Assembly (NCBI GenBank): GCA_009777735.1
Contig: WRLF01000007.1
Coordinates: forward strand, 62,001 to 126,000
DNA length: 64,000 bases
Source of the DNA: Treponema sp.
Lineage (GTDB): Bacteria > Spirochaetota > Spirochaetia > Treponematales > Breznakiellaceae
Direction of reading: 5' to 3'
Shown here: positions 1,329 to 15,008 of the stretch, piece by piece
Position numbering within the stretch: position 1 is the stretch's first letter
Layout: each line of letters opens with the position of its first letter
Program-made: the position numbers and the translations under genes
The notes under the pieces: model-generated
The model's input: the letters and a program-made list of their open reading frames with translations, nothing else
The model's database searches: none
What the model was told of the DNA's origin: nothing

Positions 1329-3659
1329 TTAATTATTTTGCGGCGACAGAGGCACTTGCGCATAACGGATGAAACGCGGGCGGTATATGTCCGCGTTACC
1401 GCCGCCCTGGAATCCTCCAATTGAATCACCGCCCTGACCTCCGTTTACATTATACGTTATTACCAGTTCACCATCGGTCGAAATTGCCGGATGCGCTTTA
1501 CCGTTGTAGGAATACATGCCAAGACCGCCGTCTTTCTGGTCTTCTACCGGAATCGTCAGGAACGGACTTGTAGCAAAGTAAACCTGCCTCATGTTGGTAA
1601 AATCACCATAAGGGGAATCGGCAACCCTGATACGGACCCACCGGTTAAAAAATTGGGTGTCCATATAGACCTGGTAGTATTTGCCTGCATCCGGCCCGCT
1701 TCTCACTTCGTGTATGCTGCATTCACCGGCGAACTCGGTTTGATTACTTGGGTTTAAAAATTTTTGGTTGGATACAGATTTACCCCAGGGTTGATTTTGC
1801 CATTGGTTATTGTTATAGAGGTACTCAATTTTGGTGAAATCTTCCACATCTTCGGGTTTTACCCGCGCGACAATCAGCCTGCGTGCGCCCCATTGGCCGA
1901 CGGGAACATTGGCAACACCGTAAATATATATATACCCGTCGGGGTTAAGTGCCCCGGCGGCTGCGGTATTTTCAAATATAGCGCTGCCTAAAGACCAGCC
2001 TCCTTGATCATTGCCTACCTCATCATAGAAATGGCTGCCTGTGTTTAAACGGGTAATGTCCGATTGAACATTACCGCCTGAAATTTCAAACCGGACGAAA
2101 TCGGTGGCTACATGCCTAAATCCCCAGTCCCCGCCGCCGACATTTTGTACTCTGCTGCAAAAAATATATAGTCTGCTGTTCGTAACAAATATGTCGCCTA
2201 TCCAGTAATACCCGCTTTGCCCCTGCGGTACTATTGCAGAATTGTCATTAGTAGCAGTAGAAAAAACTATGTTAGAGGCATGGGGAAGGCCGTTCAGGGT
2301 TGCCGTAGTATTGTTGGGCATATGCCAGCCAATTCTTCTGCCGGTAACCGGATCGACTCTGGAGGAAATGGTATCCTGAAAAGTGAAGTATGTTCTTCTG
2401 TTCTGGGGCGGTCTTGCCGGATCAAAGTCTTTTCCGTCAAAGTTTACCGAATAGATGCCGTCTGCGCCGGCCCACTGTCTGTTGTTACCAACGGGGTAGA
2501 CGTTGAATACCCCGTTCCAGTCGGAAAGGTAGTCGGCAAACCAGCCGTCTCCTGCATAAACCCGGATTGCGCTTAGTCCGGTACTATTGCCGCTGCGGGC
2601 GCTGCCGCTGATTTTGATAAATCTGGCCGGTTGATTGTTCATGGAGATAGTCGCAGATGGTCCCATCCCGTTTTGGCCGGTTCCTGCGGAAATAGCTTGA
2701 TTTGATACTCTTGTAGTATAACTACTGTTCCATCTGTCATCCCAATTATTCACAAATACATCACCTTCCGGGCCGTCTGATGTGCTTATGGTGACAGTAT
2801 TCATCCCCCTGTTTGTATTGCCTGCGGCATTATAATTCCAGATTACTATTTTTTGAATCGGATACCTGCCGTACAGGTCGATTTCAAATTCAGCCGATGA
2901 ACTGTTGACAAAATACATGTGGTTAGGGTTGTTGTTATGCAGGGCTTCATCGCTGGTAGGATGCGATAGGCCCGCACCGTTTGTCAGGTTATAATAAGCG
3001 GGTGCAGTCTGTGATCTTCTTACATCAGAAATGGGCGAGGCGGCAATGTAGGCGCCCTGATATACGGTGTTTCGGTAACGGTAGAATTTAACTTCACTTA
3101 AGCCGAATTGACCGCCGCCCCAACTGCCATCGGTGGCATGGGGAGAAATTTTGATAAACTGGGCGCTTATTCCGTTGAACCGGATCGGCGAGCCGTCCGA
3201 CAGATTTGTTGCCGGCAGTCCTGCCGCCCCATTTGCCTGTTTCAGGGTAAAATCACCCAGATTAGTGTATGTTACATTATCGTTGGAATATGAGACAGTA
3301 ACATTTCTCAGGCCGTTTGCTCCGTTACCGAAATTATGGTTCCAGACATGCATTTCGCCAATCTGGTCTATATGGCCTATGTTAAAAATAAAATCCTGCC
3401 TGACACCCGCATACATATCAGCGGGAATATTTGTGTGCAGATTGACGCGCTCTCCCGGCCCCATCATTCCCGAATTGTTGGATATTGCAGCGTAAACCGG
3501 ATTATGCGGGGTAACTCTTAGTAATGCCCCGGTGTGTACAGAATTATTTACCGTAAATGGCGGCGGCGGCGGCGGAATATTAGTATTGTCGTCTAAATCA
3601 CATGCAACAGCTATAAATACTAAATTTAGGGATACTATCCAATAGAGCGATTTTTTCAC
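1329..3659 (-). CDS. Discoidin/propeller lipoprotein paralogue 1
   Basis: A 776-residue secreted lipoprotein. I chose the GTG at 3657-3659 because AGGAG lies 6 nt upstream and it opens a good signal peptide (lipobox AVAC, Cys20); an ATG 11 codons upstream lacks a ribosome site. A poly-Pro linker precedes two F5/8-type-C (discoidin-like) domains, roughly residues 38-190 and 195-365, each ending in a 'GLSxIxxY/F' strand. The last 400 residues form a domain with 'GADGIYSVNFDGKDFDP', 'NPDGYIYIYG', 'RRLIVARV', 'YNGKAHPAIS' and 'YRPRFIRYAQVP', which recalls the uncharacterised DUF4185/DUF5005-like beta-propellers. Discoidin domains usually bind carbohydrate; whether the C-terminal domain is an enzyme is unknown. 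The gene has its own good promoter (3681-3709). Confidence 0.85.
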   Translation of the reverse strand: MKKSLYWIVSLNLVFIAVACDLDDNTNIPPPPPPFTVNNSVHTGALLRVTPHNPVYAAISNNSGMMGPGERVNLHTNIPADMYAGVRQDFIFNIGHIDQIGEMHVWNHNFGNGANGLRNVTVSYSNDNVTYTNLGDFTLKQANGAAGLPATNLSDGSPIRFNGISAQFIKISPHATDGSWGGGQFGLSEVKFYRYRNTVYQGAYIAASPISDVRRSQTAPAYYNLTNGAGLSHPTSDEALHNNNPNHMYFVNSSSAEFEIDLYGRYPIQKIVIWNYNAAGNTNRGMNTVTISTSDGPEGDVFVNNWDDRWNSSYTTRVSNQAISAGTGQNGMGPSATISMNNQPARFIKISGSARSGNSTGLSAIRVYAGDGWFADYLSDWNGVFNVYPVGNNRQWAGADGIYSVNFDGKDFDPARPPQNRRTYFTFQDTISSRVDPVTGRRIGWHMPNNTTATLNGLPHASNIVFSTATNDNSAIVPQGQSGYYWIGDIFVTNSRLYIFCSRVQNVGGGDWGFRHVATDFVRFEISGGNVQSDITRLNTGSHFYDEVGNDQGGWSLGSAIFENTAAAGALNPDGYIYIYGVANVPVGQWGARRLIVARVKPEDVEDFTKIEYLYNNNQWQNQPWGKSVSNQKFLNPSNQTEFAGECSIHEVRSGPDAGKYYQVYMDTQFFNRWVRIRVADSPYGDFTNMRQVYFATSPFLTIPVEDQKDGGLGMYSYNGKAHPAISTDGELVITYNVNGGQGGDSIGGFQGGGNADIYRPRFIRYAQVPLSPQNN

Positions 3660-3680
3660 ATGTTTCTCCTTTTTATTGGT

Positions 3681-3709
3681 ACTATACCACACTTTTATTA
3701 AAATATCAA
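3681..3709 (-). promoter_or_regulatory. Sigma-70-type promoter before discoidin paralogue 1
   Basis: Reading the minus strand, TTGATA (3704-3709) is followed after a 17-bp spacer by TATAGT (3681-3686), each one mismatch from consensus. It sits between the stop of the upstream gene at 3713 and the GTG start at 3659, so paralogue 1 and the lipoprotein after it could be transcribed separately from the rest of the operon. Confidence 0.6.
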
Positions 3710-3712
3710 ATG

Positions 3713-5929
3713 TTAATTACCTGCCTTAAAAGGTACCTGTGCATAACGGATAAAACGGGGCCGGCCTATATCCATGTATTTAATTTCGCTGTCACCCCCG
3801 TTAACATTATACGTTATATACAGCTCGTTGTCAGGTGATACTGCCGTATGCGCTTTTCCGTTGTAGACATACAAGCTGCCGTCATCCGGAAGTGTAAAGA
3901 ATGGATCGGTAATAAAGAAAATCTGCTGCATGCCGGAAAAATCACCGTAAGGCGAATTAGCAGTTCTAATCCTGACCCATTTGTCAAAAAACCTCGTATC
4001 CATGTAAACTTGCATAAATTTACCCGCATCGGGTCCTGATTTTATCTCATGTATGCTGAATTCAAAAGCGAGATTGAGTTGATTTGACGGGGTTAAAAAT
4101 TTTGGATCAGAAAGATTAAGCCCCCAGGCCTGAAGTTTCCAGGAATTATCGCTCCATAAGTATTCATATTTGCTGAAATCCTGGACATTTTCAGCCTTCA
4201 CCCGTGCGACAACCAGCCTGCGGTCACTGCCCCAGCCGGGAATGGGAACAGTGAAAACACCATACACATAAATATATCCATCCGGTTTAAGTGCGCCGGC
4301 TCCTGCGGTGTTATTTAACACTGCGCAGCCCAACGTATAATAATATTCCGTTGCCGCATCTGTTTGATAGAGTCTGTTACCGGCAGTGTCATTATATCTT
4401 TGCAATGATGATTCATTTACCATGTTGTTCGTTATGGTAAACCTTGCCAAATCAGTGCCGGTTTGAGAAAAGCCCCAGGTTCCGCCGGTTCTTATTCTTA
4501 TTGTGTATATATACAGATAATTATTAACAATAAAAGTGTCACCCAGCCAGTAAATCGTGTTACTTACCGGCGGGTTAATCGTTATTGGGTTAATATTAAA
4601 ATGTATATTGACGGAACGGGGAAGGCCGCCTATCAGGGTTGCGCGGGTGTTGTTGGGCATTCCCCAGTTTCCGTCTCTTTCCCCGTTCAGCGGATTGACC
4701 GTTGTGGTTAATGTATCAGAAAAGATGAATAATGTATTTTTATTTTCCGGATTTCTTAATGGATCGTAATCTTTTCCGTCAAGGTTTACCGAATATATAC
4801 CGTCAGCATTGGTCCACCCCCGGATACCTTGATTATAAACGGAAAATAATGCGGTAAAGTCAGGGACATTGTCGGCATACCAGCCCTCACCGATATAGCA
4901 GCGGATTGCGCTTAACCCGGAATGCGTTCCGCCCAGGCTGGTGCCGCTTATCCGTATATACCTGGCAGTAAAATTAAGTGAAATGATCGCAGAAGGCTCC
5001 AGCCCGTTTTCGCCGGTACCCTCGGCAATATCATGCGTTCCCGCCGGTACCCAGTTCACTGTATCATCCGATGTGCTTATTGCAATACTTTTCATGCCGC
5101 GCCCTGTTCTGCCGGGCTCATTGTAATTCCAGACAACTATTTTTTCGACCGGATACCTTCCCTGCAAGTCTATTTCAAATGTACCTGACGAACCGGAGAC
5201 GGAATACATGTGATCGGGGTTATTGTCATGTACGGCATCCGGGGCGGAAGGATCCGATAATCCGGCGCCGTTTGTCAGATTGTAATACTCCGCTGCCGGA
5301 TCAGAATTCAATCTGTAAATGGGCGACGCAGCAATATATGCTCCCCTGTAAACGTCGTTTCTGTAACGGTAAAATTTTATTTCGCTTAACCCGTATTGCC
5401 CGCCGCCGTAATTGTCTATTGGTGATATTTTTATATACCGTACACTTTTTCCTTTGAAATTAATAATGGAATCATCGGCAAGATTTGTTACCGGTATACG
5501 CGCCGCCCCGTTTGCCTGCCTTAGCGTAAATGTACCCAGTTCCATGTAATCTGTGTTATTGCCGGAATATGAAACAGTTACATTTTTAATACCGTTTGCT
5601 CCGCTGCCGGAATTGTGGTTCCATATATGCACTTCGCCCAATTGCTCAATGCGGCCCAGGTCAAAAATATAATCCTGTTTTGGGCCCGCGTACATATCAA
5701 CCGGATTGTTGTTATGCGAATGGATACGTTCTCCGTTACCGCTCATTCCCGAATTGTTGCAAAGGGCTGCGTAGGCGGAATTAAGCGGTGTAACTTTAAG
5801 TAAAATCCCCGTGTGTGCAACCGGAATTGAATTGAATTCCGGCGGCGGTTCGTAGAAGCCGGATTGACCGCCTGTATCGCAGGCAGTCAGCCTGAAAAGA
5901 AAAAATACCAGGAGAATCAAATATTTCAT
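3713..5929 (-). CDS. Discoidin/propeller lipoprotein paralogue 2
   Basis: A 738-residue lipoprotein with the same plan as its neighbours: signal peptide with lipobox LTAC (Cys17), a short Pro-rich spacer, two discoidin-like domains (about 35-185 and 190-360) and the conserved C-terminal propeller-like domain with 'NADGIYSVNLDGKDYDP', 'FSDTL', 'KPDGYIYVYG', 'RRLVVARV' and 'IGRPRFIRYAQVP'. GGAGG lies 7 nt before the ATG and the beta-mannosidase stop is 16 bp upstream, so the two are probably co-transcribed. It lacks the Trp/Asp-rich insertion in the second domain of paralogue 1. It is predicted to be anchored to the outer or inner membrane by its lipid; the ligand is unknown, with mannose-containing glycan suggested only by the neighbouring enzyme. 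Confidence 0.87.
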   Translation of the reverse strand: MKYLILLVFFLFRLTACDTGGQSGFYEPPPEFNSIPVAHTGILLKVTPLNSAYAALCNNSGMSGNGERIHSHNNNPVDMYAGPKQDYIFDLGRIEQLGEVHIWNHNSGSGANGIKNVTVSYSGNNTDYMELGTFTLRQANGAARIPVTNLADDSIINFKGKSVRYIKISPIDNYGGGQYGLSEIKFYRYRNDVYRGAYIAASPIYRLNSDPAAEYYNLTNGAGLSDPSAPDAVHDNNPDHMYSVSGSSGTFEIDLQGRYPVEKIVVWNYNEPGRTGRGMKSIAISTSDDTVNWVPAGTHDIAEGTGENGLEPSAIISLNFTARYIRISGTSLGGTHSGLSAIRCYIGEGWYADNVPDFTALFSVYNQGIRGWTNADGIYSVNLDGKDYDPLRNPENKNTLFIFSDTLTTTVNPLNGERDGNWGMPNNTRATLIGGLPRSVNIHFNINPITINPPVSNTIYWLGDTFIVNNYLYIYTIRIRTGGTWGFSQTGTDLARFTITNNMVNESSLQRYNDTAGNRLYQTDAATEYYYTLGCAVLNNTAGAGALKPDGYIYVYGVFTVPIPGWGSDRRLVVARVKAENVQDFSKYEYLWSDNSWKLQAWGLNLSDPKFLTPSNQLNLAFEFSIHEIKSGPDAGKFMQVYMDTRFFDKWVRIRTANSPYGDFSGMQQIFFITDPFFTLPDDGSLYVYNGKAHTAVSPDNELYITYNVNGGDSEIKYMDIGRPRFIRYAQVPFKAGN

Positions 5930-8416: not shown

Positions 8417-10663
8417 CTACTGTATGACAGGAACACGGGCAAAACGAATATAACGCGGCCTGTAAATATCTCCGTAGGTCCAGTTTTCGTCTCCGTTGAC
8501 ATTGTATGCGATATATAATTCCCTGTCATTTGACATTGCAGCATGTACTTTCGCATTGGAAGAAAAAGCGCCTCTGTTATACGGCCATGACTGGGGAACA
8601 TCGGTATGGTATATTACCTGTGAATTGGTAAATTCCTCCGTTAAGGATGAAGCAATCGAAATTTGAATGGTTTGGCCTATCGTGCCGGGCGTGCTTACAA
8701 AAAGAAATTTTCCCCTGTCCGGACCGGTTTTTATTTCAGTTACACTTACCTCCGTGGCGCCAAATCTTGATAAAATTTTTGGGTTAGTCATTTCCCTTCC
8801 CCATGTATTATTTTCCAGCAAATATTCCCATGAATGTAAATTTTCAATTTCATCAGCTTTTACACGGGCTGCAATAAGGCTGCGGAATCTGTTGAATCTT
8901 CTGTCCATGTACCCGTATATATAGATATATCCGTCGGGGTTTAGCGCTCCTGCCTGTTCGGTGTTTTCAAATACACCGGCAGTCAGCATCCAGTTACCCT
9001 GATTATTTTCATTGGAAAGCCTGTTTGCGGTGTCTTTGATAATTACCAGCGAGGAAAAATCCACTTCGTTGTCCGTTATGTCAAACCTGGCAAGGTCAGC
9101 CCCTTCTCCCCAAAAGCCCCAGGCACCTTCGGTGATAAAGTCAATTTTGGCGGCAGTTACATAGAGTTTTTCACCTATCACAAATGATGGGCCCAGCCAG
9201 TAAAATTTTAAGCGGTCAGAGCCTGCCAGCGTTACTCTTTCCGGCGGGTCAGGCATAATGATCCCTGTCCCGGCCTGGTTTCTTTCCGGCCAGGTAAATG
9301 TTATTTTTGTGGAATCCGGGAAACGTCCATGTAATGCTGCCGCTGTATTGTAGGGCATATAGGTGTGGCGTCTAAAGTCGGTGCGGGGATTAACTACGGA
9401 AATTTTTGTATCCCCAAAGTGAAAGTGAATAAAATGATCGGCAGGGTCACGATCCGGCGCATAAATTCTTCCGTCAAGGCTTGTCGCAAAAAAGCCGTCC
9501 GATCCGCTCCATCCGACATAATTTGAAAACAAAGCAGTCCAGTCCGGCAGGTCGTCAGCGAACCAGCCCTCGCCTATGTAACAGCGAATGGCGCTTAAGC
9601 CCGCCCTGCTGCCGCCGTGATTGCCAAGATTGTCAACCCGCAGATACCGGGCATATAAATGTTTTTCAATAACAAGAGACGGCGTAAGATTATTTTCACC
9701 GCCCGCACGGGGGAGTTCGTATACTTCGGGCGTCCGTATCCAGTTTTTTCCGTCTTCCGAGTAACTTATTCTTATCTTGCGCAAACCCCAATCGGTGTTC
9801 CCGGCGCCGTTGTAATTCCAAATAACAATTTTTTCAACGGGATATTTTCCCTTGAGATCTATCGGAAACCCCGCAATTTTGCGGTTTCTGTCGGCAAACA
9901 TATGAGCCGGATTATTATCGTGTACAGCGTCCGCGCTGAACGGATCCGATAAACCTGCGCCGTTGAACAGATTGTAGTTGGCTGAAGAAGATATAAACCT
10001 TCCGTTTAAATATCTTTCCAGGGGCGAAGCGGATATATACGCTCCTTTAAACACATCCTGTTTATAACGGTACAGCCGTATCTCGCTTAAACCGAATTCT
10101 TCCCCCCCATAATTGTCTACCGGTGAGAGTTTGATGTAACGGGCGCTTTTTCCTGCAAGATCAATGGAGGTTCCGCCGGTTAAATTGGTAGCCAGCAGCT
10201 TCTCCGCTCCACTGGCCTGCGCCAATTCAAACGTACCGGCTTCGGTATAGGTAATATTGTCATTTGATAATGATATTGTTATATTTCTAATGCCGTTTTC
10301 TGTTTTTCCTTCTTCGTTGTAATTCCAAATGTGCAATTCTCCCAGTTGTTCAATGCGGAAACTGATATCAAACACAAAGTCCTGTTTTTCACCCACATAC
10401 ATTGTTTTTGGGTCATTATTATGCCAATGATTACGGCCATGCCTGCCGCTCATACCAAAACCGTCACTGATTCCTGTGTATTTCTCTTCAAGCGGGTGGA
10501 TACGCAGGAATTCCCCTACCTGGCGCGGAAGCAATTCGGTTTCAAATACAGGTGACAGAGGGAAAACGCCGGGATCAACCGGCCTGCCTGATGTTGCACA
10601 GGTACTGACGGTAATCAATGAGAAAAATAAAACAGTAACGGCAATCCAATATTGTTTTCTCAT
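8417..10663 (-). CDS. Discoidin/propeller lipoprotein paralogue 3
   Basis: A 748-residue lipoprotein (lipobox VSTC, Cys22) with two discoidin-like domains (about 45-200 and 205-375) and the shared C-terminal domain ('GSDGFFATSLDGRIYAP', 'NPDGYIYIYG', 'RSLIAARV', 'IYRPRYIRFARVP'). It is the most divergent complete copy: the first motif reads 'RHGRNHWHNNDPKTMYV' rather than the cysteine/asparagine version of the others, and the 'YNGKAHPA' motif is replaced by 'SNAKVHAAMS'. The ATG is 2 nt after the stop of the preceding lipoprotein gene, with GAGGGG as ribosome site, and its own stop is 2 nt before the beta-mannosidase ATG, so translation of the three is probably coupled. Confidence 0.86.
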   Translation of the reverse strand: MRKQYWIAVTVLFFSLITVSTCATSGRPVDPGVFPLSPVFETELLPRQVGEFLRIHPLEEKYTGISDGFGMSGRHGRNHWHNNDPKTMYVGEKQDFVFDISFRIEQLGELHIWNYNEEGKTENGIRNITISLSNDNITYTEAGTFELAQASGAEKLLATNLTGGTSIDLAGKSARYIKLSPVDNYGGEEFGLSEIRLYRYKQDVFKGAYISASPLERYLNGRFISSSANYNLFNGAGLSDPFSADAVHDNNPAHMFADRNRKIAGFPIDLKGKYPVEKIVIWNYNGAGNTDWGLRKIRISYSEDGKNWIRTPEVYELPRAGGENNLTPSLVIEKHLYARYLRVDNLGNHGGSRAGLSAIRCYIGEGWFADDLPDWTALFSNYVGWSGSDGFFATSLDGRIYAPDRDPADHFIHFHFGDTKISVVNPRTDFRRHTYMPYNTAAALHGRFPDSTKITFTWPERNQAGTGIIMPDPPERVTLAGSDRLKFYWLGPSFVIGEKLYVTAAKIDFITEGAWGFWGEGADLARFDITDNEVDFSSLVIIKDTANRLSNENNQGNWMLTAGVFENTEQAGALNPDGYIYIYGYMDRRFNRFRSLIAARVKADEIENLHSWEYLLENNTWGREMTNPKILSRFGATEVSVTEIKTGPDRGKFLFVSTPGTIGQTIQISIASSLTEEFTNSQVIYHTDVPQSWPYNRGAFSSNAKVHAAMSNDRELYIAYNVNGDENWTYGDIYRPRYIRFARVPVIQ

Positions 10664-11362: not shown

Positions 11363-13489
11363 TCATGGATTATCCGGCACTTGCGCGTAACGGATAAAAC
11401 GGGGCCGGAATATATCCGCATTTTTACCGCCCTGGCCGCCGTTTACGTTATATGAAATAACCAGTTCCCTTTCACTGGAAAGCGCCGGGTGTGCTTTTGG
11501 GTTGTATGCATACATATAATTTGTGTCTTTTTGGTCTTTGAGTGGAATCGTATTAAAGGGAGTAACAAGCTGGAAAACCTGCCTGCTGTCAGAAAAATTA
11601 CCTGCGGGGCCGTCGGCGGACGCAATTCTTATCCAGTCATCCTCAAAAGTTTTCCTCGAATATACCATCGTGAATTTCCCTTTATCAGTTCCCGATCTAA
11701 CTTCCTGTATGCTGAATTCCGTAGAGGTGTTTTCGTCGGGCGGAGATAAAAACTTCATGTTGTCAGAAGATGACCCCCAGGCTTGATTCTTCCATGTATT
11801 ATCATGCCATAAATACTCGTATTTCGTAAAGTCTTCTGCGTCTGCAGGCCTTACACGTGCGGCAATCAGCCTTCGGCAACCGGTACCGTCATGATAACCG
11901 TACACATATATAAAGCCGTCGGGGTTAAGTGCACCGGCTTCTGCGGTATTTTCAAATAACGCAGAGCCCAAATACCACCTGGGGCTGTCGCCGCTTGTAC
12001 CGGCTGAGGTATCGGCAAGATTTTTGTCCGTATCTTTAATTATTTCCGCCGATGATTTATCAACTTCACCGTTTTTTATGGTGAATTTTAGTAAATCGAC
12101 ACCAATCTGCTTAAAACCCCACGGCCCCCCGACTTTATTATTTACCCAAATTGTAAAAATATTCACTTTGCCGCCCCAAACAAAACCGTCAGCCATCCAG
12201 TAAAATTCTTTCTCTACCTCCGGAAACGGTTTAATTCTTTCAATGTCGTAAGTAATGTTGGCGGATGCAGGTATACCGCCGGCCAGGGTCGCATACGTAT
12301 TGTTCTGCATCCCCCAGGGGCCAAACCTTCGCCCGGTTACCGGATTCACCGGCTGGGTAAGAGTATCGGAAAATATGAAAAATGTTTTTTTATCTTCCGG
12401 CTTTCTGTTTGAATCGTAATCTTTTCCGTCAAGGTTTACCGCATAAATACCGTCCGCGCCCGACCATCCCGGTTCCGGTGTATAGTTAAATAATAACGCT
12501 GTTAAGTCGGGAAGATAATCGGCAAACATGCCGCTGCCAATATAACAGCGGATTGCGCTTAACCCCGATTGTGCCCCGCTGATGCACGGGCCGCTTATTC
12601 TGATAAACCGGGCAGTAAAATCTACCGGGATAACCGCAGACGGCTCAAGCCCGTTTTGACCGGTCCCCGGATTAATACCGGCGGATGTTACCCTTGTTGT
12701 CCAGGAACCGATGTTGTTATCCGCCGATTGTACGGTGATATTTTTAAGGCCGTATCTGGTTTTACCTGCGCCGTTGTAATTCCAAATAACTATTTTTTCT
12801 ACCGGATACCTTCCATGCAGGTCTATTTCAAACACGCCGGTGTTACCTTTGACAAAAAACATATGGGCGCTGTTGTTATCATGCACGGCAGCAGGGCTGA
12901 CCGGATCCGATAATCCCGCGCCGTTTGTAAGGTTATAATACGCGGATTTTGGTAATGTTGTTCTGATGTTATACAACGGCGAAGCTGCGATATACGCGCC
13001 CTTGTATACGGCATGACGGTAACGGAACAGTTTTATTTCGCTTAAGCCATAACGCCCTCCGCCGTAGTTGTCAATGGGCGTAATTTTAATATACCGCGCA
13101 TTTAATCCGTTAAAATTGATAAACGAACCGTCCGTACAATTTGTCGCCGGTAATTTCGCCGATCCATCCGCCCGTTTCAGCGTAAAAACCCCCAAGTCTG
13201 TGTAATTTTTGTTATTTTCCGAGTAAGAAACGGTTATATTTTTCAGGCCGTTTGAACCGTCTCCCGAATTATGGTTCCAGATATGCAATTGCCCCAACTG
13301 GTCTATTCGCCCTGCATCAAAAATAAAGCATTTCTTTTTGCCGGTACACATATCTTTTGCATCATTGGAATGACAATGGACACGTCCCGCAGCAGCGCCG
13401 TTCATTCCCGAATTGTTACAAAGGGCAGCATAAGATCGCCTGAGCGGCTTAAGTCGGATAAATTCACCCGGGTGAGAGTCATTTTTCAT
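11363..13489 (-). CDS. Discoidin/propeller paralogue 4, no signal peptide
   Basis: About 708 residues. Three ATGs lie close together; the one at 13487-13489 is best spaced from AGAGG (9 nt), and the frame could open at 13498. The protein starts directly with 'MKNDSHPGEFIRLKPL', the first strand of the discoidin region, so it lacks the lipoprotein signal and Pro linker of all its paralogues. Otherwise it is complete: two discoidin-like domains and the C-terminal domain with 'GADGIYAVNLDGKDYD', 'NPDGFIYVYG', 'RRLIAARV', 'YNPKAHPALS' and 'IFRPRFIRYAQVP'. It is the first gene of the operon. Either it is cytosolic, or it lost its leader by recombination at the junction just upstream; only 39 bp separate it from an LRR fragment. 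Confidence 0.8.
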   Translation of the reverse strand: MKNDSHPGEFIRLKPLRRSYAALCNNSGMNGAAAGRVHCHSNDAKDMCTGKKKCFIFDAGRIDQLGQLHIWNHNSGDGSNGLKNITVSYSENNKNYTDLGVFTLKRADGSAKLPATNCTDGSFINFNGLNARYIKITPIDNYGGGRYGLSEIKLFRYRHAVYKGAYIAASPLYNIRTTLPKSAYYNLTNGAGLSDPVSPAAVHDNNSAHMFFVKGNTGVFEIDLHGRYPVEKIVIWNYNGAGKTRYGLKNITVQSADNNIGSWTTRVTSAGINPGTGQNGLEPSAVIPVDFTARFIRISGPCISGAQSGLSAIRCYIGSGMFADYLPDLTALLFNYTPEPGWSGADGIYAVNLDGKDYDSNRKPEDKKTFFIFSDTLTQPVNPVTGRRFGPWGMQNNTYATLAGGIPASANITYDIERIKPFPEVEKEFYWMADGFVWGGKVNIFTIWVNNKVGGPWGFKQIGVDLLKFTIKNGEVDKSSAEIIKDTDKNLADTSAGTSGDSPRWYLGSALFENTAEAGALNPDGFIYVYGYHDGTGCRRLIAARVRPADAEDFTKYEYLWHDNTWKNQAWGSSSDNMKFLSPPDENTSTEFSIQEVRSGTDKGKFTMVYSRKTFEDDWIRIASADGPAGNFSDSRQVFQLVTPFNTIPLKDQKDTNYMYAYNPKAHPALSSERELVISYNVNGGQGGKNADIFRPRFIRYAQVPDNP

Positions 13490-13537
13490 AAACATCATCC
13501 TCTTTCTAAGTTAATTTTCGGACATATCCAGTATAAA

Positions 13538-13924
13538 CTAAAAATTAACAAATGTAAGGTTGATGTTGGGGTTTACCGTGCCGGACATGTAGTTTCCATT
13601 CCATCCCCTGCCCCTAAAGGCGTTCCCCCAGTTGTTCGTAACAGTGTCCATGTTATTAAAAGGTATTAAACCGTAACCGGCGGCGCCAGTGGGAATCCTG
13701 ACGGTGACATTTTTTGGGGAATGTATATTGCTGAATATTGCTGTCAATACAAAAGGAGCTGAATTATTCAAAGTAATGGTAAGCGCTTGTGTACCTGTAC
13801 CTGAAAAAGCATCAGACCCAATGTCTAATATTTTTGGTAAATTCACACTGCTTAAGTTTATACAATTGCTGAATGCATTCATGTTAATTACGGTTGCTTC
13901 AGGCAAATCCACAATCGTTTGTTA
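13538..13924 (-). pseudogene. BspA-type leucine-rich-repeat protein, 3' remnant
   Basis: The readable frame (GTG at 13910-13912, in-frame TAA four codons upstream) encodes about 124 residues. It begins with a single LRR_5-type unit, 'NAFSNCINLSSVNLPKI', followed by the C-terminal region typical of treponemal LRR_5 proteins, with 'WGNAFRGRGWNGNYMSGTVN'. Full proteins of this type have a signal peptide and many repeats; here everything 5' of one repeat is missing and the frame is closed by a stop right at the edge. I read it as the 3' end of a surface LRR gene left by deletion or recombination. It has no recognisable promoter or ribosome site. Confidence 0.65.
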
Positions 13925-14579: not shown

Positions 14580-14610
14580 AACTATCTCCTAAATTTATTA
14601 TAATATGGTA

Positions 14611-14639
14611 AATATATCACATATTGATTTATTTGACAA
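14611..14639 (-). promoter_or_regulatory. Promoter of the AT-rich lipoprotein
   Basis: On the minus strand TTGTCA (14634-14639), a 17-bp spacer and TATATT (14611-14616) each miss the sigma-70 consensus by one base. The lipoprotein ATG follows about 32 bp later, leaving a short AT-rich leader with an AGGAG ribosome site. Confidence 0.65.
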
Positions 14640-14730
14640 CCATATTTGACGAATTTTCTCAATTTTAGGAAATTCTTATGTTTACCAAGCAAAATTCATT
14701 GCATTATTGCAAGATGAAAAGGCGGCAGTG

Positions 14731-14865
14731 GAGGATTGACCTTCCAGCCCTCAGCGTCCTGCTTCGGGCTTCCAGGCCACCTCTGTGCCTTTCGGCGCAT
14801 CCATGCGCCTCACCCCATCAAAGGCGATTCCTTCTCGGGGGACGGCACTACGGGTTCAAATCCTC
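14731..14865. ncRNA. Structured non-coding element next to tRNA-Gln
   Basis: No coding frame is convincing between 14640 and 14878. In it, GAGGATT (14731-14737) pairs exactly with AATCCTC (14859-14865). Inside, GCCTTT (14787-14792) pairs with AAAGGC (14820-14825) and encloses a six-pair hairpin GGCGCA-TCCA-TGCGCC (14794-14809). The nested pairing suggests a folded RNA or a mobile palindromic repeat of about 135 bp; the strand is not known. The right end carries GGGTTCAAATCCTC, an inverted copy of the T-arm of the adjacent tRNA. I see no SRP RNA or tmRNA signature. Confidence 0.35.
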
Positions 14866-14878
14866 TTTGCTTTGTTTT

Positions 14879-14949
14879 TTCCCCAGGGAGGATTTGAACC
14901 CCCACAAGCTGATCCAGAGTCAGCTGTGCTACCATTACACAACCGGGGA
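14879..14949 (-). tRNA. tRNA-Gln (anticodon CUG)
   Basis: The minus strand folds into a 71-nt cloverleaf. The seven-pair acceptor stem (14943-14949 with 14880-14886) contains one G-U. The D-arm is GTGT/GCAC with loop AATGGTA. The anticodon stem GCTGA/TCAGC carries loop CTCTGGA, with CUG at 14915-14917. The T-arm is GGGGG/CCTCC around TTCAAAT. The 3' CCA is not encoded. The variable loop is short (4 nt). The 5' end matches the usual bacterial tRNA-Gln pattern, with TGG loops and weak first acceptor pair. Confidence 0.9.
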
Positions 14950-15008
14950 TAGCGTTTCTTTTACTGAAATTAAATCTTACAAAAATCAGTCGAATGTGTC
15001 AAGCAGCG

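Follow-up and report, generated by a model that had tools for sequence, protein, structure and literature searches.

Mobile DNA of bacteria classically lands at transfer RNA (tRNA) genes, any given integrase being restricted to one or a few of these. For such integrative elements and prophages, the attachment site is the 3' end of the tRNA, such that the tRNA remains intact and a copy of its 3' end flanks the insert. Here, we analyze a short, strongly folding element downstream of the tRNA-Gln(CTG) gene in a 64,000-nucleotide (nt) stretch of a Treponema sp. genome (contig WRLF01000007.1, positions 62,001 to 126,000; henceforth, the window). The family to which it belongs resembles those insertions in leaving the tRNA intact with a copy of its 3' end at the far junction; unlike them, it has neither an integrase nor any other gene, comes in units of ~0.2 kilobases (kb), adds an inverted copy of the T-arm and, as a single family, serves many tRNA types.

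Other hairpin-based systems also offer parallels. Integron integrases recombine attC sites as folded single strands (PMC2727003, PMC3053210). The likeness to attC sites lies in an imperfectly paired hairpin of DNA whose key bases are unpaired, in the tandem arrays, and in recognition by structure. In contrast, our element has no gene cassettes and no integron integrase above the curated cut-off (0 of 39 genomes), possesses two hairpin domains, and has arms that vary with the tRNA. The REP elements, with their RAYT (Y1) transposases, are likewise short, dispersed, gene-less hairpin repeats; however, the present element is tRNA-linked with target-matched arms, and Y1_Tnp is found in only 17 of the 39 genomes of the genus, being absent from well-populated ones. 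The mitochondrial double-hairpin elements are also small mobile DNAs with two hairpins, but they inhabit other genomes, and we know of none with tRNA-matched arms. Finally, the IS110-type bridge RNA and other guide RNAs share a programmable stretch complementary to the target, whereas our element lacks a linked transposase (the IS110 family occurs in 11 of the 39 genomes) and its putative guide itself carries letters of the target neighborhood.

Taken against this background, we propose, at a probability of roughly 0.5, that the element represents a hitherto undescribed Spirochaetota family of ~120-150 base pair (bp) non-coding, non-autonomous mobile elements specific to the T-loops of tRNA and transfer-messenger RNA (tmRNA) genes.

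The window copy and its family

The window copy is organized as follows, with all features on the minus strand:

14879 to 14949, minus: tRNA-Gln(CTG) gene, the sole tRNA of the window (ARAGORN; Rfam RF00005, 58.9 bits), with T55/C56 at 14897/14896 and N73 at 14879.
14866 to 14878, minus: A-rich trailer joining tRNA and element, 13 nt long here but 59-67 nt in the majority of genus copies.
14852 to 14865, minus: left arm ('anti'), an inverted copy of the tRNA-Gln T-arm (51-64) and 5' side of stem P1, from the exact 14-nt inverted repeat and the family profile.
14785 to 14848, minus: core domain P2, with closing stem GTGCC/GGCAC and two inner hairpins, one with the loop AUGGAU, from covariance model R1 and pair counts.
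14739 to 14778, minus: core domain P3, a hairpin with GGA/GGA and GA/GA internal loops and the loop AGGAC, from the structure model and pair counts.
14730 to 14738, minus: right arm and 3' side of P1, a decayed direct copy of the tRNA-Gln 3' end that starts at C56 and retains 9 of 18 nt, with one A lost; the arm is intact in other copies.
14730 to 14865, minus: whole element, a family member by R1 (118.1 bits, E 7.0e-28 in its own genome, at the same place, G000:C7:76731-76865).

Read in the tRNA sense, the tRNA thus leads through the 13-nt trailer into the inverted T-arm, after which come a segment of strong folding and a brief T-arm-like piece in direct orientation. The original prediction had singled out a structured piece with an exact 14-bp inverted repeat of the T-arm. 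Indeed, 14852-14865 and 14888-14901, the latter being the tRNA-Gln T-arm (tRNA positions 51-64), pair perfectly across a 22-nt gap, and 14728-14880 folds as minus-strand RNA with a z-score of -5.2 (0 of 200 shuffles as good). As plus-strand RNA the same segment folds more weakly (-2.1; 6 of 200 shuffles), and 14728-14869 folded as DNA yields z-scores of -3.8 and -3.2. Of the right arm, only CAATCCTCC (14738-14730) is left here, lacking one base and the acceptor part, while other copies keep it intact according to the family profile. What the letters of the window alone did not reveal is that the element is multi-copy, is oriented with the tRNA (minus here), and normally ends in a direct copy of tRNA positions 56-73.

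The T-arm match was also predicted to exceed chance. Among 191 distinct tRNA/tmRNA genes from fetched loci, most of which were fetched for holding the element, 116 are followed within 150 nt by a perfect reverse complement of 10 nt of their own T-arm, against only two with the same 10 nt there as a direct copy. These counts, along with the family matches recovered by BLASTN, rule out a chance inverted repeat. The BLASTN search, which the prediction had proposed, found a second copy in the own genome, behind a tRNA-Ala gene, and recovered matches in 24 of the 59 genomes searched (E<=0.001, own genome included), nearly all beside tRNA genes of many kinds and also tmRNA. The covariance model R1, built from 15 copies, detects 10 copies in the own genome and places family members in 37 of the 39 genus genomes (E<=0.01). 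In a phylum-wide sample of 392 genomes, 72 have matches, spanning 34 of 166 genera (E<=1e-4). The single-copy, non-covarying sequence that would have told against the prediction is hence contradicted by a multi-copy family with strong covariation.

A degenerate pattern scan of a named genome collection yielded 48 stretches, mostly from Treponema or other spirochaete metagenome genomes. Five stretches outside the phylum (two from Microbacterium, one each from Clostridiales and Bacteroidales metagenome-assembled genomes, the last at E 0.66, and one from Dyadobacter) failed confirmation by R1 at E<=0.01; one Tannerella-labelled stretch (L134) was confirmed, but it lies at a short contig end and is probably misbinned. 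Hence, at the search sensitivity used, the family looks confined to Spirochaetota. Plasmid and phage collections provided no further members. In Rfam 15, only tRNA and tmRNA scored above the curated threshold in the window and eight loci, and 14600-15000 returned nothing relevant at E up to 10; this absence of any other match rules out a known Rfam RNA. A literature search over titles and the beginnings of abstracts, with most subscription papers outside it, and the covered passages of PMC12306157 contained nothing resembling the element, which suggests that the family is undescribed in Rfam 15 and in the literature covered.

Arms, arrays and cores at tRNA genes

Taking the best-scoring copies in 92 loci, we obtained 149 matches, of which 140 are distinct. 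A same-strand tRNA or tmRNA gene lies upstream in the locus for 134 of these 140; 96 copies are within 80 nt of it, with a sharp distance peak at 59-67 nt, and they adjoin 17 kinds of tRNA/tmRNA gene. Copies beyond 80 nt are mostly second or later tandem units, many at ~275 nt. The six without a called tRNA upstream include L010, L023, L019 (two), L081, and L100: in L023 only the tRNA 3' end remains before the element, and L010 (1240-1500) shows a tRNA-Gln-like sequence directly upstream that seems to lack the D-arm or part of the 5' half and is not called by ARAGORN. Several tRNAs are followed by tandem arrays of two to four units, some nearly identical; in L027, L089, L095, and L105 clearly unlike units carry the same arms. 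At ~170-220 bp, the units leave no room for a gene. In the own genome, the copies L074, L075, L076, and L068 each precede a further unit that stops inside P2 and comprises a direct copy, a trailer, and a left arm.

In total, 96 copies were anchored on the conserved T55-C56 (two more, L002 and L103, could not be anchored), and each arm position was scored against the own tRNA and against a random tRNA of another type. The left arm complements the own tRNA at 52-64 and partly at 65, with position 53 matched in only 58%; at the variable positions 57/59/63/64, agreement is 98/99/96/92% with the own tRNA versus 57/42/50/36% with another type. The right arm reproduces C56 to N73 of the own tRNA at 92-100% per position (88 copies; eight had no anchor), thereby placing a copy of the tRNA 3' end (56-73) at the far junction of an intact tRNA, a copy which is decayed in the window. 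Because this match collapses at position 55 (5%) and position 74 (58%), the edges of the element coincide with the T55/C56 bond and the mature tRNA 3' end. In L021, L026, L027, and L029 the left arm extends to complement nearly the whole tRNA 3' end to N73.

These edges bear on the notion of a retroelement-like small RNA reverse-transcribed into nicked tRNA genes, with arms generated by target-primed synthesis. A right arm that runs from C56 precisely to N73, where the mature tRNA ends if its CCA is left aside, accords with it, and the follow-on units cut off within P2 (L068, L074-L076) resemble incomplete copying. Nevertheless, we consider it very unlikely: CCA is absent after N73 in the copies inspected, and RVT_1 is unmatched in 28 of the 39 genomes, including the best-populated G031, G029, and G008. 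With matches in only 11 of 39 genomes and none in those copy-rich ones, a reverse transcriptase is also rejected as the required enzyme.

Further information comes from the cores, which we compared without their arms across 88 distinct copies. Twenty-eight core pairs, drawn from 26 of the 88, are at least 85% identical yet differ in their T-arm letters; at the differing tRNA positions, agreement with the own tRNA is 34 of 37 for the left arm and 105 of 109 for the right. At 75% core identity, the corresponding values are 488 of 623 and 1676 of 1788. For example, the cores at Leu (L016), Arg (L032), and Tyr (L033) tRNAs of three genomes are 0.82-0.89 identical. Thus, similar cores occur with arms re-matched to different tRNAs.

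Such a pattern could also arise by gene conversion between resident copies, and old repeats residing at tRNA genes, with homogenized cores, locus-specific arms, and only past and rare mobility, are a rather improbable alternative to our proposal. It draws on the Ser-tRNA clusters, in which copies occupy the same places in several genomes, and on mean core identities of 0.718 for the same tRNA type in different genomes (565 pairs) versus 0.658 for different types in the same genome (48 pairs), a difference that speaks against free movement and by which an element probably changes tRNA type less often than it is inherited or transferred at the same type. It is less compatible with the close Leu, Arg, and Tyr cores of three genomes, the stacking of unlike units at one tRNA, and arms that are still exact despite diverged flanks.

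Fold and the choice between DNA and RNA

The 140 distinct rows give 4476 cells, of which 94.1% hold standard pairs against 70.3% after shuffling; double-sided changes are seen in 32 of 35 pairs, and sliding the partners by 1-3 columns abolishes the signal; the rows were fitted to R1, which biases them towards the model, yet the margins are large. The covariation that the original prediction proposed to check is accordingly strong in the family. P2 adopts a three-way junction, P3 bears the GGA/GGA and GA/GA internal loops, and one hairpin loop reads AUGGAY or AGGAY and another AGGAN. Such AUGGAY/AGGA loops might conceivably let the element act as a CsrA sponge.

G-U pairs are scarce in this fold, with 80 of 4476 (1.8%) alongside 36 A-C, as compared to 209 of 2771 (7.5%) G-U and 8 (0.3%) A-C in the acceptor, anticodon, and T stems of tRNAs at the same loci (164 distinct sequences), an imperfect control in that the rows are related, ARAGORN favors paired tRNAs, and the best offset was taken, so that p-values from it are nominal. 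The core without the eight P1 pairs has 55 G-U and 21 A-C by hand count. With regard to attC sites, in which pairing is conserved as DNA and structure counts more than sequence, the family displays covariation and few G-U pairs, which may point the same way. Moreover, intrinsic terminators lie in the trailers of 23 of 96 copies (18 in other genera), with a second one after the element in 11. As G-U pairs are scarce and terminators separate tRNA from element in those copies, the near-pure Watson-Crick pairing hints that use as single-stranded DNA fits better than use as RNA.

The same evidence frames a further proposal, raised in outline by the original prediction, namely that a structured RNA downstream of each tRNA pairs through its left arm with the T-arm of the precursor, controls its maturation or degradation, and has been inherited vertically and duplicated with tRNA genes. 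We retain it as an unlikely rival. The strong secondary-structure covariation is as it predicts; the left arm complements tRNA 52-65, including 54-55, which the right arm lacks; the sense strand folds better as RNA than the other strand; and several trailers in the own genome are only 9-25 nt long, making read-through likely. Likewise, the excess of G-U over A-C (80:36) on the tRNA-sense strand is also expected of an RNA. On the other hand, G-U pairs are four times rarer than in tRNA stems, and terminators precede the element in 23 of 96 copies and flank it in 11. Furthermore, at one orthologous tRNA the element is found in one species and missing from another, some copies are truncated, unlike units stand in tandem, and the acceptor part of the right arm (66-73) has no role in such pairing.

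Candidate enzymes, occupied sites and implications

From these comparisons we infer, for the proposed mobile family, mobility itself, insertion at T55/C56, folding at the level of DNA, and rewriting of the arms. In the single-strand fold, the two arms form the closing stem P1, from which the hairpin domains P2 and P3 project. With the left arm complementing 52-65 across the universal T55/C56 bond and the right arm repeating C56-N73 in direct orientation, insertion at that bond would restore or duplicate the tRNA 3' end, so that the tRNA would stay intact. A recombinase may handle the folded single-stranded DNA in the manner of integron attC sites, and the arms would be rewritten whenever the element moves, as might happen if the target strand were copied onto either end of the core. 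More tentatively, we envisage a self-retargeting DNA element, in which an arm of the folded strand serves as the guide over T55/C56, a host recombinase performs the insertion, and both arms are rewritten per move. Through such rewriting, one gene-less element could colonize almost every tRNA gene and break none. The earlier suggestion of a tRNA-derived mobile element hence stands in part: multiple copies, many tRNA types, unlike tandem units, and arms that follow the local tRNA make a tRNA-associated mobile element the best fit of the three options offered, but the tRNA body is not the source, since only the arms copy the 3' end of the neighbor.

As to the enzyme, phage-integrase-type recombinases, including XerC/XerD-like ones, occur in all 39 genomes of the genus and are for that reason possible candidates. 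The Y1 transposase (17 of 39 genomes, absent from several copy-rich ones) and the IS110 transposase (11 of 39, with several copy-rich genomes lacking it) are rejected as required enzymes. The integron integrase model TIGR02249 matches none of the 39 above its curated cut-off, with weaker partial matches in 21. We also observed a tyrosine recombinase of ~400 residues, nearest to XerA/integron integrase models and with an N-terminal stretch of ~120 residues lacking a Pfam match (L191:2145-3347, L190:532-1716, L193:756-1943, and 17 more loci, with orthologues in all 20 fetched). It is present in 21 of 39 genomes and in 10 of the 11 high-quality ones, the exception, G018, also being without elements; in L190 its gene lies just before an apparent tRNA-Asp followed by the element.

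Several results weigh against the proposal of a mobile family. No partner enzyme was identified among the recombinase, transposase, and reverse transcriptase families searched in the 39 genomes. The XerA/IntI-like recombinase is itself rejected as a required partner: in a search that used only its divergent N-terminal part and may miss distant relatives, the domain was detected in 9 of the 392 phylum genomes, all of family f1, of which five are without the element (E<=1e-4), and the domain is absent from 68 of the 72 genomes that have elements. In the window copy, the right arm is decayed and the trailer measures 13 nt instead of the usual 59-67. Among the genomes compared, no species offered both an occupied and an empty version of a site, and excised forms were not seen. 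In favor of the proposal, the mutL-tRNA-Gln locus has an element-free ortholog in a different species (L222), as far as the 110 bases available beyond its tRNA reach, but this comparison is between species (MutL identity 72%) and is a single one, because only 2 of 30 fetched mutL loci have tRNA-Gln adjoining mutL.

Larger insertions share some of these tRNAs. At tRNA-Ala(CGC) in the own genome (L068, G000:C13), a 3.5-kb island lies between two element copies; it includes an AbiEi/AbiEii toxin-antitoxin pair (2792-4314), and the second of the two element copies comes after 30 nt that repeat the tRNA 3' end. In a 44-kb prophage record (L112), an apparent tmRNA 3' end is followed by a family member (4280-4490), with an integrase gene near the record start. 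As far as these two cases show, the element is part of the tRNA neighborhood rather than of the island or prophage insertions. The original alternative of an integration scar, taken as the remnant of an ordinary phage or island, finds no support as an account of how the family arose, though islands and a prophage did integrate at some of the same tRNAs. An integron-cassette reading is likewise rejected, because the genes between copies in L065-L067 adjoin separate tRNA genes; those in L068 constitute the AbiE island.

Two further observations deserve record. A short dispersed intergenic palindrome, TAATTCCTTA...TAAGGAATTA, occurs at L222:3399-3421 and near elements in L033, L068, L080, and L190. 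Elsewhere in the window, the neighboring genes at 8417-10663 and 11363-13498 encode related proteins of ~700 residues, followed by an open reading frame (13538-13912) that by eye appears leucine-rich-repeat-like.

If the proposed mobile family is borne out, a gene-less element that matches its arms to the adjoining tRNA would constitute a new way of target choice, would show that a rewritable guide exists in nature, and might serve as a tool. Should it act as RNA instead, it would represent a tRNA-specific antisense partner at many tRNA genes of a phylum, equally unreported in the portion of the literature covered.
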